Shown piece after piece: positions 15,776 through 64,000 of a stretch of 64,000 nucleotides of DNA. The translations under genes were made by a program, and so were the position numbers. Numbering within the stretch: position 1 is the first letter of the stretch; each line of letters opens with the position of its first letter. The DNA comes from Symbiodinium natans (Eukaryota > Sar > Dinophyceae > Suessiales > Symbiodiniaceae), in NCBI GenBank assembly GCA_905221605.1, contig CAJNDS010002129.1:1-64000 (forward strand), in the 5' to 3' direction. Under the pieces are notes generated by a model. It worked only from the letters and a program-made list of their open reading frames with translations. It was not told the origin of the DNA and did not search any database.

Positions 15776-16050
15776 CTAAACCCTAAACCCACCCTAAACC
15801 CTAAACCCTAAACCCTAAACCCTAAACCCTAAACCCTAAACCCTAAACCCTAAACCCTAAACCCTAAACCCTAACCATAAACCCTAAACCCTAAACCCTA
15901 AACCCTAAACCCTAAACCCTAAACCCTAAACCCTAAACCCTAAACCCTAAACCCTAAACCCAAACCCTAAACCCCAAGCCCTTAGCCCTAAACCCTAAGC
16001 CCCAAGCCCAAAGCCTTAAGCCCAAAGCCCTAAGCCCTAAGCCCTAAGCA
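15776..16050. repeat. Largest telomere-like array (CCCTAAA)
   Basis: About 270 bases, almost perfect to 15960, then variants (CCCCAAG, GCCCTTA, GCCCTAA) toward the exon at 16052. The gradient of variants is on the exon side. Confidence 0.95.
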
Positions 16051-16051
16051 G

Positions 16052-16131
16052 CTGGGATTGCCAACCGAGGATGCTACCCGGGAGCCCGTGAAGGTCACGG
16101 TCAGCGAGGCTGATGAGATCAAGGCGGCTAA
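16052..16131 (+). CDS. Exon-like frame, unknown
   Basis: AGCAG acceptor, LGLPTEDATREPVKVTVS then EADEIKAAK, and a GC donor candidate. Flanked by CCCTAAA before and TTTAGGG after (16155). Confidence 0.6.
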
Positions 16132-16212
16132 GCGTTTTCGGGTTCAGGTTTGGGGTTTAGGGTTTAGGGACTTGTGCCTGGAGTGTTCCATTGGAGATTG
16201 CGCCAGCTTCAG

Positions 16213-16335
16213 TCCTGTTCGGAGAAGGGACTTGTGGCAAAGTGGGTCGAAGCGTTCCCAGATCACCGTGCTGCCAAAGCTCTCGTATCATGCTGTTTTT
16301 GCTCTGGCCTCCCACCTCGGGAATTTGTAGCGTAA
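16213..16335 (+). CDS. Probable terminal exon, unknown
   Basis: CTTCAG acceptor; SCSEKGLVAKWVEAFPDH then RAAKALVSCCFCSGLPPR, ending at TAA 16333-16335. Two other frames are partly open. A further frame at 16420-16540 (SIKVDAFKLGSEESPNSS) is possible but weak. Confidence 0.45.
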   Translation, partial: SCSEKGLVAKWVEAFPDHRAAKALVSCCFCSGLPPREFVA

Positions 16336-16671
16336 CTTGTGTGAGAGTGTGGGCTTACTCTAAGGCTAAGTTTTAGGGTTTACGTACTTGGTTCAGGATT
16401 TTGAACTTGGGTCATTTTCGAACAAGAAGCCTGCATCACGAACCCTTCCCAGACCCCTGGGAGGATCCATAAAGGTAGATGCCTTTAAGTTGGGTTCCGA
16501 AGAATCGCCCAATAGCAGTATAGCGTACTATTTAGGGATTCTGTTTTTTGGATCCTGCAAGGGGTCTGGGTTATGGGCCTTCTCGAGTTGTGGCGATTTA
16601 CGTCTGTGCGTGTGTGTGAACAATCTCGGAGCTCTAAGCCATAAACCCTAATGTTGGACCCGTTTTTGTGA

Positions 16672-17067
16672 AAAGGGACACTATTACGCATTTTTCCGCA
16701 AATCTTATAGAAAACCCCCCCTTTGATGAGGGTGGTCCTCAATTATGCGATGTTGCCGGGCCGGGGATGAAGGGCGGGGCGCCGGGCAGCCAAAAACTAA
16801 AAATTAGATTGAATATAAGAAACTCCGGAAGTTTCTGGTGTCCGGCTTTGTTTAATTTCCTTTTAAAATTTCATTACGAAACAGGCCCCCAAACAATTTT
16901 CCAAGGGAGTAGCCCACGAGCTGCCCTGATTCGCTTTTAGTAAATTGTTTTGGTTACCCGCATTAATCCGCAGCCCCCCTGGCCAGGGAGCTACAAGGCC
17001 TGGAAAGCTTAGACCATCAAGCTTCAAGGCTTCCCCTCAACCCCCGCCCTACTGTACCCCCAGCCCC
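16672..17067. repeat. Dispersed repeat I, copy 1
   Basis: About 400 bases. The reverse complement of 48708-49086 matches it along the length, for example TCAATTATGCGATGTTGCCG and CTGGCCAGGGAGCTACAA. No convincing frame; non-coding mobile DNA of unknown class. Confidence 0.85.
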
Positions 17068-17482
17068 CCCCGTCCTAGCCAATAGAGGATCCCCGAAAAC
17101 CCCAATTTTTTTTTTTTTTTTTGGGGGGGGGGGGGGGGGGGGCGGGGCCTGGATACTAAAGCGTGTCCAACATTGACATCAAACCAGATGTGGAATACTA
17201 ACAGGGGTGTCTTTTGCTTAAGCGCCGTGCGGGAGCGACGACGGCCCTGTGCACGTGCCTGGGCCCGAACACAGATCGCTCTCACCTGGGTCCCGTACAC
17301 CTTCCGCTCCCATCTCGGTCCCCGTGCAATTTTTTGCACCGTGCCGTGTCCAAAAAATGGAAACCCTAAACCCAGAACAGGGAACTTCCCCCCAAAACCG
17401 CATTTTCTGACGCTTGCGAGGGGGGACCCCCTGAGACCCCTGAAACCCCTCTAGGCCTAAACCCTAAAAGGAAAAGGAATAG

Positions 17483-17642
17483 GTTCGGGTGGGTTTGTCA
17501 CCTGAGACGGCGTCGGGTGGGACAAAAGTGTTAGATGGCCCTCCACTATCGGGCCATGGCTGCTCCTCGGATATCACGAAGCTGTCGAAGCGAGTCTTCA
17601 TCCCAACCTTCACAGCTTCTGCGCCATTACACAGCAAACCCT
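17483..17642 (+). CDS. Exon-like frame, unknown
   Basis: Reads GLSPETASGGTKVLDGPP then GCSSDITKLSKRVFIPTF. The first in-frame stop is in the CCCTAA that opens the next array. Confidence 0.5.
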
Positions 17643-17775
17643 AAACCCTAAGCCCTGAACCCTAAACTAAACCCTAAACCCTAAACCCTAAACCCTAAAC
17701 CCTAAACCCTAAACCCTAAACCCTAAACCCTAAACCCTAAACCCTAAACCCTAAACCCTAAACCCTAAACCCAAA
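17643..17775. repeat. CCCTAAA array
   Basis: Long near-perfect array ending 15 bases before the CAG acceptor of the next exon. Confidence 0.95.
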
Positions 17776-17790
17776 CCCCATTGGGCTCAG

Positions 17791-17937
17791 ATGGGTTGTC
17801 TTCGTCCATTCTAAGGGAGTTTTTGCACCATTTCGGCCCGCAGAGTTCTCTTCCAGTGGTCTTGGCAGGTTCTTCGAGTCCGCGTGTTCTTGGCATGCTT
17901 TTTCCACGTGTCCGAACTCAGATCAAACCCGAGCAGG
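17791..17937 (+). CDS. Exon-like frame, unknown
   Basis: CTCAG acceptor at 17790; LSSSILREFLHHFGPQSS then LPVVLAGSSSPRVLGML; ends CAGG before GTTTAGGG, so the telomere unit itself can supply the GT donor. Confidence 0.5.
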
Positions 17938-61708: not shown

Positions 61709-61737
61709 AGCCCTAAACCCGAAGTGTAAAGGGGAAC

Positions 61738-61844
61738 ACTGCCGGGGCACAACGTGCCGAGGCTCAAGAAGCTCTTCCCGGATCTTGTCACATCCGCTAC
61801 GAAGCCAAAGGTCGTGGAGAAGCTTCCCGACATTTGGGTCGAGG
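61738..61844 (+). CDS. Exon, basic, unknown
   Basis: LPGHNVPRLKKLFPDLVT, SATKPKVVEKLPDIWVE, then a GT donor at GTCTAGGG. Degenerate TTTAGGG follows. An Ala/Arg-rich frame is also open. Confidence 0.55.
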
Positions 61845-62307
61845 GTCTAGGGTTTAGATTTAGGGTTTAGGGTTTCGGGGTGGGAAAGGGCGCAGGGCTT
61901 AGGGTAACATGGTGCTTCCGGCCTTGCGTATCAAGAGCACAGTTTGACAGTCGCCACAACCTCCGAGATTTCGCCTGCTGGACAACGAAGGAAGATGGTG
62001 GAAAACATGGGCCTCGTGCAGCCCCTTGGACGACCCCTGATGACTTCCTGGTTCTTAGTAGGGAGGTCTAGTAACTCGAGGCGCCTTTTTGGGGTTATAT
62101 GGGGTAGCTACTTCCTAAATTCCTTAATTACTGCAAAAACACTACGACTACGATACCCCGATACTGAGTGTCGACATCCAAGAAGCCTGCAAAGAACCGG
62201 TGCGTGAGCAACATGAGAACGTAAAAGTTTGCTATGCTTTGGCAATGCTTTGGGTTCAACCCTCCACCCTGAACACAAAACCAGGTATCATCGGCCTGGG
62301 TGGAGCT

Positions 62308-62393
62308 TGAACTTCAGGCAAAAGATCCGGTACATTTGTGCATCGGATGTCTCTGGAGCTTTTGCGGAGAAGTGGCCGGGCCGCGTGGGAGTT
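62308..62393 (+). CDS. Possible exon, Cys-containing
   Basis: LELQAKDPVHLCIGCLWS then FCGEVAGPRGS and stop. 62400-63080 shows no other supported gene. Confidence 0.35.
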
Positions 62394-63086
62394 GAGTGAG
62401 GGCAGACGGACCATGGAGGGATGTTTCACGACTCGTAGGACTCCTAGTAGTGCCTGGTTCCCTTTGTCGGTTGTATAGATTCCCTTCTGCACCCCTGGTA
62501 TGCAAGAGAGGTTGCTTGGGAGACCTATAACCCTTACCCCCCAAACCTTAGGGTTTTGGTGCCAAGTCGCTATTTGACAGAGGTAGCCAGAAGGATTCAA
62601 GAGGCGACAGGAGGCCGGTAGCAAGCATAGCGGCATAGCGCTTGTGTACGGCCTGTATGTATCTAAACCTGGTACGCCCGGCATGCCCCTTAAAACTCTG
62701 CAGCACACACGGCATACCAGGAGGAACGGGGATGTGGGGGCGTGTGGATCCTACGTTTCCCCCGTCCCCCCATGTCCACGTCTCCGCATTCCAGATGTGA
62801 CTCTACTCCACAGTATAGGGTAGCGAGTTTGGCTTGGGCGAAGTTGAACCATGTCGATGGCCCTTGCGGTACCCCATGAATGGCAAGAAACCGAACGTTG
62901 CGTTCTACGATTCTACCTACGACCCTCGGCACCTGAAACACCAAACGCCACATCCTGGGTTACCGAAATAGTTAGTTCTCTAGATCATGACCCTTTTTGG
63001 CAGACCCTGCCGTAAGCAGAGCAGGGAACCCCCAAAACGGGACAACCATTTTCAGAACTGACCATACCAGGTTGGGTCTAGGACCC

Positions 63087-63137
63087 AACGTCGAGCCCCA
63101 GAAGACGGTGGTCAACGGCTCGGTGGTGCCTTGCCGA
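63087..63137 (+). CDS. Possible short terminal exon
   Basis: LGPNVEPQKTVVNGSVVP then CR and TGA, after a TCTAG acceptor. Confidence 0.4.
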
Positions 63138-63322
63138 TGAAGGGTGCATACGAGCTGCGCTTGTGATCCTCCTATTCAGAGGGGTCCCCTATCCCAATTT
63201 CTAAGCCACCAGCGTTTAGGGCCCAACCACGGCTTGTGAGTATTTGCAGAAGCTTCGAGACCCAGAATGCCTCAACGTGCTTAAAAGTAGGTGTGCCCGG
63301 AACCCCACAGACTCACGGACTC

Positions 63323-63383
63323 AGCCTAAACCCTAAATAACCCCTAAGCCCTAAACCCCAAACCCTAAACCCTAAACCCTAAC
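63323..63383. repeat. CCCTAAA array
   Basis: Degenerate then perfect, ending 17 bases before the acceptor. Confidence 0.9.
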
Positions 63384-63400
63384 CATGCCATGGCCTTCAG

Positions 63401-63499
63401 GTGGACTTGCGCGTCGCAAAGCAGCGAAGGGCCAGGCGTCGGGCGGCCAGGAAGGCTGAGCGACTGGCAGAGCAGATGGCCTCAAGCGACGAAGCTTGA
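63401..63499 (+). CDS. Terminal exon, strongly basic helix
   Basis: CCTTCAG acceptor at 63400; VDLRVAKQRRARRRAARK then AERLAEQMASSDEA, TGA 63497-63499. TTTAGGG starts 20 bases later. 63620-64000 has no supported gene. Confidence 0.7.
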   Translation: MDLRVAKQRRARRRAARKAERLAEQMASSDEA

Positions 63500-64000
63500 C
63501 TCGCCTGGGCACTCCCCTAGGGTTTAGGGTTTAGGGTTTAGGGTGTAGGGGTTTTAGGGAGGCGGGATATTATCGAGGCGGGCGAAGTCTCCTGGAAAAG
63601 GGTTTAGGGTTTAGGGTCCCCCAACCCTCATCCTAAAGGTTCATGCGTACCCTGTCTTCCGGCAGTTGTTGCGTATGTCCTGCGCATTGGTTTTTACTGC
63701 GTGTTCGGATGTGACTTGAAAACTGTGAGCTGGGAACAACAGTGATGTTTGTACCTCCAGTGTTTGCACGCTTCTATCTACAAGTGTCCTGGCTGTTCCT
63801 GTAGGCTTTAGGGATGTGGTAGGTGAGTGGGGATTATCGAGGTTTCTGAGGCTTTTCCGTTATTCCTGGGTTGCTTCTACCCTTTTTGAGTGTGGTTCCT
63901 ATAGGCCACCTGGAAAGCCTAAGATCCAGAGTAGGCACCTTCTTCCCGGTTTCTTAGGGTTTAGGTTCGGAGAAGCCCCTTATAAACCGAAAAGGGCACC

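Follow-up and report, generated by a model that had tools for sequence, protein, structure and literature searches.

Outward-pointing telomere-type repeat arrays in introns of the dinoflagellate Symbiodinium natans

Why should a repeat of chromosome ends lie inside genes, and in a preferred direction around exons? The question is raised by bases 1-64000 of contig CAJNDS010002129.1 of Symbiodinium natans, a 64,000-nucleotide (nt) stretch referred to here as the window, in an assembly of 759 Mb and 2,543 contigs. TTTAGGG is reported as a telomere repeat of dinoflagellates in the accessible parts of PMC11453091 and PMC11508785. Throughout, a G array or unit is TTTAGGG on the strand read, and a C array or unit is CCCTAAA. 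The window contained 256 TTTAGGG and 321 CCCTAAA units, and 132 merged arrays were found compared with none in one mononucleotide shuffle. Genome-wide, the perfect telomere-type 21-mer occurred 1,185,204 times forward and 1,184,385 times in reverse, while the reversed control occurred 41 and 33 times. Unit, 21-mer and array counts all place tandem telomere-type repeats at internal sites. Coverage by arrays was uneven, from 0 to 52% over 17 sampled stretches (one wholly masked, three partly masked and one only 75 nt long). These repeats fill many introns, usually pointing outward from exons, and the pattern is real.

An earlier note on the window, made from its letters alone, had observed that CCCTAAA tends to end just before an exon and TTTAGGG to begin just after it, and had listed 17 exons that follow this rule and five that do not. 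The observation was confirmed by the listed exons, window shuffles, genome-wide pairs and introns placed by protein alignment. The nearest unit upstream was a C unit (2-61 nt away) and the nearest downstream a G unit (71-157 nt away) at 17 of 17 rule exons, and a G unit lay upstream of all five exceptions. The weakest case was the island at 61738, whose upstream side is a single CCCTAAA unit. Exons predicted from codon usage on the plus strand overlapped four rule exons (16052, 20851, 58165 and 61738) and one exception (13371), and the 27001 island overlapped one on the minus strand; islands without such overlap are putative exons. Some of the flanking arrays adjoin a ~105-bp palindromic element, resembling a miniature inverted-repeat transposable element (MITE), that was common in the sampled DNA. 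The rule exons and exceptions are as follows.

227..529, no strand: C array 227-336, island, G array 492-529
15774..16169: C array 15774-16047, island, G array 16136-16169; codon-usage exon 16070-16133 on the plus strand
17636..17956: C array 17636-17778, island, G array 17935-17956; palindromic element copy 17960-18060 next to it
20762..20996: C array 20762-20826, island, G array 20937-20996; codon-usage exon 20851-20933 on the plus strand
21621..21871: C array 21621-21703, island, G array 21820-21871; the C array abuts a palindromic element core
26880..27139: C array 26880-26996, island, G array 27115-27139; the G array abuts a palindromic element core; codon usage indicates the minus strand
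32799..33097: C array to 32956, island, G array 33053-33097
35571..35837: C array to 35687, island, G array 35776-35837
42938..43140: C array 42938-42962, island, G array 43067-43140
45534..45873: C array 45534-45620, island, G array 45722-45873
47066..47390: C array 47066-47201, island, G array 47310-47390
53021..53326: C array 53021-53118, island, G array 53254-53326
54362..54570: C array 54362-54403, island, G array 54528-54570
55659..55926: C array 55659-55691, island, G array 55819-55926
58132..58348: C array 58132-58158, island, G array 58295-58348; codon-usage exon 58165-58211 on the plus strand
61711..61879: CCCTAAA unit 61711-61717, island, G array 61842-61879; codon-usage exon 61762-61840 on the plus strand
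63325..63617: C array 63325-63382, island, G array 63518-63617
13236..13550: exception, exon 13371, with G array 13236-13317 upstream and C array 13481-13550 downstream
21266..21341: exception, G array upstream of 21342
24611..24714: exception, G array upstream of 24720
46585..46623: exception, G array extending to 46622
60772..60974: exception, exon 60857, with G arrays on both sides

Shuffling upheld the bias. Among 63 exon-sized gaps of 80-185 nt between neighbouring arrays in the window, bounds that were set only after the gap lists had been inspected, the order was C-G in 30, C-C in 15, G-C in 11 and G-G in 7. The excess of C-G over G-C was therefore 19, against 0.0 ± 4.3 for shuffled labels, and none of 20,000 shuffles reached 19 (p = 5e-5). 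Genome-wide, C..G exceeded G..C at 90-120 nt (134,342 vs. 47,188) and at 200-230 nt (321,834 vs. 148,393), and at 0-30 nt the order reversed (2,282 vs. 6,284); these figures are unit pairs, in which long arrays are counted many times. Opposite arrays less than 30 nt apart were rare beside wider gaps, perhaps through palindrome instability or difficulty of assembly.

One part of the original description did not survive: the polarity had been tied to the coding strand. An intron that starts with TTTAGGG and ends with CCCTAAA is its own reverse complement in arrangement, so it cannot mark a strand, and coding-strand polarity was rejected. The real rule is that the G strand leads away from the exon on either side. 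Since the arrangement is self-complementary, the rule concerns the exon, and a process directed by transcription would not by itself be sufficient to produce it.

Exon borders were also placed by protein similarity. Dynein AAA_6 domains were located through Pfam in eight genes outside the window and aligned with a splice-aware aligner, using a profile made from the uninterrupted copies L034 and L035 and refined with genes L029, L030 and L033. From the 76 exons placed, 15 weak terminal or low-similarity ones were dropped and introns across them skipped, leaving 51 introns. Donors were GC in 25, GT in 16 and GA in 10, and all 51 acceptors read AG|G (AG was required by the aligner and a following G slightly favoured). 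Arrays were present in 23 introns, which measured 293-6,932 nt, compared with 53-950 nt for the array-free ones. The bias held at these borders: within 60 nt, donor-side arrays were 14 G to 4 C and acceptor-side arrays 13 C to 2 G (Fisher p = 3.6e-4). Introns with an array on each side gave, donor then acceptor, 10 GC, 2 CC, 2 GG and 0 CG, and the arrays at the two sides of an intron look independent. Array load was uneven among dynein paralogues (L029-L033, L036-L039), with arrays in every placed intron of some and almost none of others.

A codon-usage scan of further sampled DNA gave 206 predicted exons, among them pieces of two reading frames of the window that served as training data and have no nearby array; the predictor recovered 13 of the 33 known dynein exons, and two of the four test genes were training genes. 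Within 40 nt, arrays upstream of these exons were 16 C to 2 G (p = 0.0013) and those downstream 14 G to 6 C (p = 0.12), and the bias was not significant for the 206 exons at 60, 100 or 200 nt. Inside the window, an RCC1-like gene allowed introns to be placed by eye from its internal protein repeats:

9246..9366, plus strand: intron 1, GA-AG; C array 9305-9327 ends 39 nt before the intron end
9452..9657, plus strand: intron 2, GC-AG; G array 9457-9500 from intron position 6, with no C array at the intron end
9788..9890, plus strand: intron 3, an introner-like palindromic element bounded on each side by GGTGAC and free of telomere arrays
10001..10129, plus strand: intron 4, GC-AG; C array 10079-10125 stops 4 nt short of the intron end
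10130-10234: codon-usage exon after intron 4

By eye, the 5' splice site of intron 3 falls within the repeated GGTGAC bases.

Comparison across paralogous introns gave the order of events. At dynein profile positions 61, 84, 119, 170 and 190, introns carried arrays in some paralogues and were array-free in others, in the same phase; a sixth position (214) shared a column and was aligned in a different phase. At a position between K and D, introns of 618 and 370 nt had arrays and introns of 71 and 950 nt had none. Because array-free paralogues share same-phase positions, the arrays are later than the introns: they entered introns that already existed and did not create these introns.

As to what set the orientation, our tentative preference, not strongly held and rated somewhat short of even, is that interstitial (TTTAGGG)n arrays spread into existing introns and that their orientation near splice sites was mainly set by what splicing tolerates. 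Arrays may have entered through telomerase at breaks, slippage or carriage by palindromic elements. A G-strand array near an acceptor would present AGG about every 7 nt ahead of the AG|G and hence would be selected against, while a C-strand array, being free of G, could sit in the branch and pyrimidine zone. A C array early in an intron may mimic a 3' splice region and be disfavoured, which would leave G arrays in the donor half. Modest support comes from the acceptor half of the dynein introns, where C to G arrays numbered 13:2 at 0-60 nt, 8:3 at 60-200 nt, 5:4 at 200-400 nt and 3:4 beyond 400 nt; a bias that fades with distance and is gone by 200-400 nt fits selection by splicing. The donor half gave G to C counts of 14:4, 5:3, 9:5 and 7:2 in the same bins (introns above 3,000 nt, a single one of 6,932 nt, were excluded from both series). 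In the 28 array-free introns AGG was scarce over the final 50 nt (10 vs. 17.7 ± 3.6 in mononucleotide shuffles) and showed no deficit in the first 50 nt (23 vs. 22.3).

It had also been proposed that the arrays are insertions kept only where they supply a G|GT donor or a C-rich acceptor tract. The acceptor part fits best: of 13 introns, 11 had at least half of positions -45 to -18 covered by C arrays, and a branch site at the usual distance may then fall inside the C-strand repeat. Supply of donors was rejected for the dynein introns, as the 14 donor-side G arrays begin 10-57 nt after the donor; the G array of RCC1-like intron 2 likewise starts after its donor. The branch motif CTRAY, found in 3 of 28 array-free introns, was too rare to use, homopolymer runs in the islands were too few to judge, and no AG-exclusion zone was seen near the acceptors of array-free introns.

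Several observations weigh against a filter by splicing. Near acceptors of array-free introns TAGG (3 vs. 4.4) and AGGG (6 vs. 4.4) were not depleted, AG exceeded expectation (89 vs. 71.7), and TAGG was instead at its minimum near donors (0 vs. 5.1 expected). TAG|G acceptors occurred in just three of the 51 dynein introns, and three G arrays within 70 nt of an acceptor retained AGG (0.82 per 7 nt vs. 0.75 at donors). Array-free introns lean only mildly to G at their starts (G 0.29, C 0.235) and have GGG there under expectation (21 vs. 28.5 ± 5.5), which leaves the donor-side preference for G without a direct cause. A single gene, L036+L037, supplied 12 of the 18 donor-side and 11 of the 15 acceptor-side arrays; the bias was p = 0.012 in that gene and p = 0.048 in the remaining dynein genes. 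Finally, arrays lying more than 100 nt away from each intron end stayed ordered, 25 G to 10 C in the first half and then 10 G to 14 C (p = 0.03), or 21:10 and 10:14 without the one 6.9-kb intron (p = 0.06). Because TAGG and AGGG were not depleted near acceptors, we lowered our estimate for selection by splicing from even to its present level, and that for polar insertion, described next, was raised slightly.

Under polar insertion, double-strand breaks in introns would have their exon-side 3' ends extended with TTTAGGG by telomerase and then be rejoined, so that arrays point outward. This is a serious rival, although we consider it rather unlikely. It would give a single cause for both intron ends and for the symmetry, it agrees with the apparent independence of the two ends and with the lean of the interior arrays, and direct junctions favour it over splicing, G|C outnumbering C|G by 6,284 to 2,282 unit pairs (2.75 to 1). 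For mammals, PMC2246262 proposes that interstitial telomeric repeats were inserted at breaks in a process linked to telomerase. However, such junctions are few relative to wider gaps, arrays in the second intron half and over 200 nt away from each end were evenly split (8 G, 8 C, in introns of up to 3,000 nt), and a telomere-like growth gradient was absent from 218 perfect cores, whose repeat similarity was equal at both flanks (101 cores were more similar on the 5' side and 110 on the 3' side, p = 0.42). A different role for the same repeats, improbable in our estimate, is that they were co-opted genome-wide as splice signals bracketing exons, the C array serving as branch and acceptor tract and the G array as donor mark, with pairing across the intron; a single simple repeat would then carry a large part of intron definition in a lineage whose GT, GC or GA donors are loose.

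An origin of the arrays as terminal or sub-terminal repeats of introner- or MITE-type DNA elements, whose inverted arms would yield the G..C order of each intron, seems to us distinctly improbable. The ~105-bp element is in its favour, as is the further palindromic introner-like intron that was placed by eye in the RCC1-like gene. Copies of the element were found at:

31345-31462, 46715-46796, 47724-47829, 54139-54231, 23512-23614 and 17959-18064 in the window, and also in L011 and L037

In three copies of the element (those near 21621 and 27139 and that at 64619, just past the window), one arm contains an array, placed at the same site and in the same orientation to the centre; here the arrays lie inside an older element, yet this explains just three arrays. 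Against such an origin, the outer segments of 10 G..C introns had no inverted similarity (5.10 vs. 4.96 ± 0.33, p = 0.39), hairpins at z < -3 were found in just 3 of 58 G..C gap fillers (gaps of 60-300 nt without N), and the array flank pairs viewed (40 of 357 and 40 of 229, excluding arrays that contained N or whose flank was cut, in a sample of 270 kb of 759 Mb) showed degenerate telomere repeats and only this one element. With array-free paralogues sharing the intron positions as well, the view that the arrays are terminal repeats paired at the ends of introners was unsupported. In a check for target-site duplications, junction matches of at least 4 nt occurred in 22 of 51 pairs, compared with 11.3 in shuffles, for array and array-free introns together. 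Least probable in our view is selection for folding, in which base pairing between the G and C arrays of a pre-mRNA would draw the splice sites together. The intron singled out in the earlier note (21818..22187, plus strand) does fold strongly end to end as RNA (minimum free energy -156.7 kcal/mol, z -9.3). Ten dynein introns combine a G array close to the donor with a C array close to the acceptor, and in eight of these more than half of the first array is paired with the last. The ability to fold was thus borne out, whereas folding as the source of the orientation was not: the C..G order pairs as well, so orientation would require a separate cause, the joint counts at the two ends are consistent with independence, and paralogous introns without arrays exist.

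Three further features of the window were noted. A 723-codon open frame encoding WD40 repeats (50236-52404) had no array within about 450 nt, despite array-rich surroundings. Another open frame (40650-41510) encodes an aminoacyl-tRNA editing domain (PF04073, E 2.1e-14). Two minisatellites far apart, at 4925-5016 and 42065-42257, have similar units (CTGGAGTGCCCAACCCCAGAGT...).

Among known splicing signals are G-run intronic splicing enhancers near donors and C-rich tracts at acceptors. The arrays resemble these in being G-rich near donors and C-rich near acceptors; unlike with those signals, array-free introns here are at most mildly G-rich near donors and have no C excess near acceptors. Like mammalian interstitial telomeric sequences, as treated in the accessible part of PMC2246262, they are internal telomeric-type arrays inserted into older DNA, and they differ in exceeding one million perfect 21-mers per strand, filling introns and having a preferred orientation around exons. 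Dinoflagellate introners, as described in the portions available of PMC7789003, PMC9860276 and PMC10666404, and by Roy et al. 2023 as cited in PMC11453091, also have inverted repeats near both intron ends. In PMC10666404 an introner is called when inverted repeats (8-20 nt) and direct repeats (3-5 nt) lie no more than 30 nt from the intron ends; the G-array start and C-array end lay within 30 nt of the ends in 4 of 23 array introns, so the inverted-repeat side of that definition, as far as that text gives it, could apply to them. Unlike introners, the arrays are a tandem telomere motif, with no terminal inverted repeats of one element in the 10 G..C introns and with apparently independent ends, and they did not create their introns, which are older at the five same-phase positions. 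No description of oriented telomere-type arrays at intron ends was found among the papers listed by searches of an open-licence library, a scope that most subscription papers fall outside; what appears to be new is interstitial telomeric repeats with an exon-centred polarity.

Where introners are counted by short inverted repeats at the ends of introns, telomere arrays may be included in the total. Because the same motif recurs in many introns in known orientation, this genome provides a natural experiment on how a spliceosome recognises intron ends when donors are loose. With more than one million 21-mers per strand and a preferred order around exons, these repeats would be an unusual instance of chromosome-end DNA that shapes gene structure.

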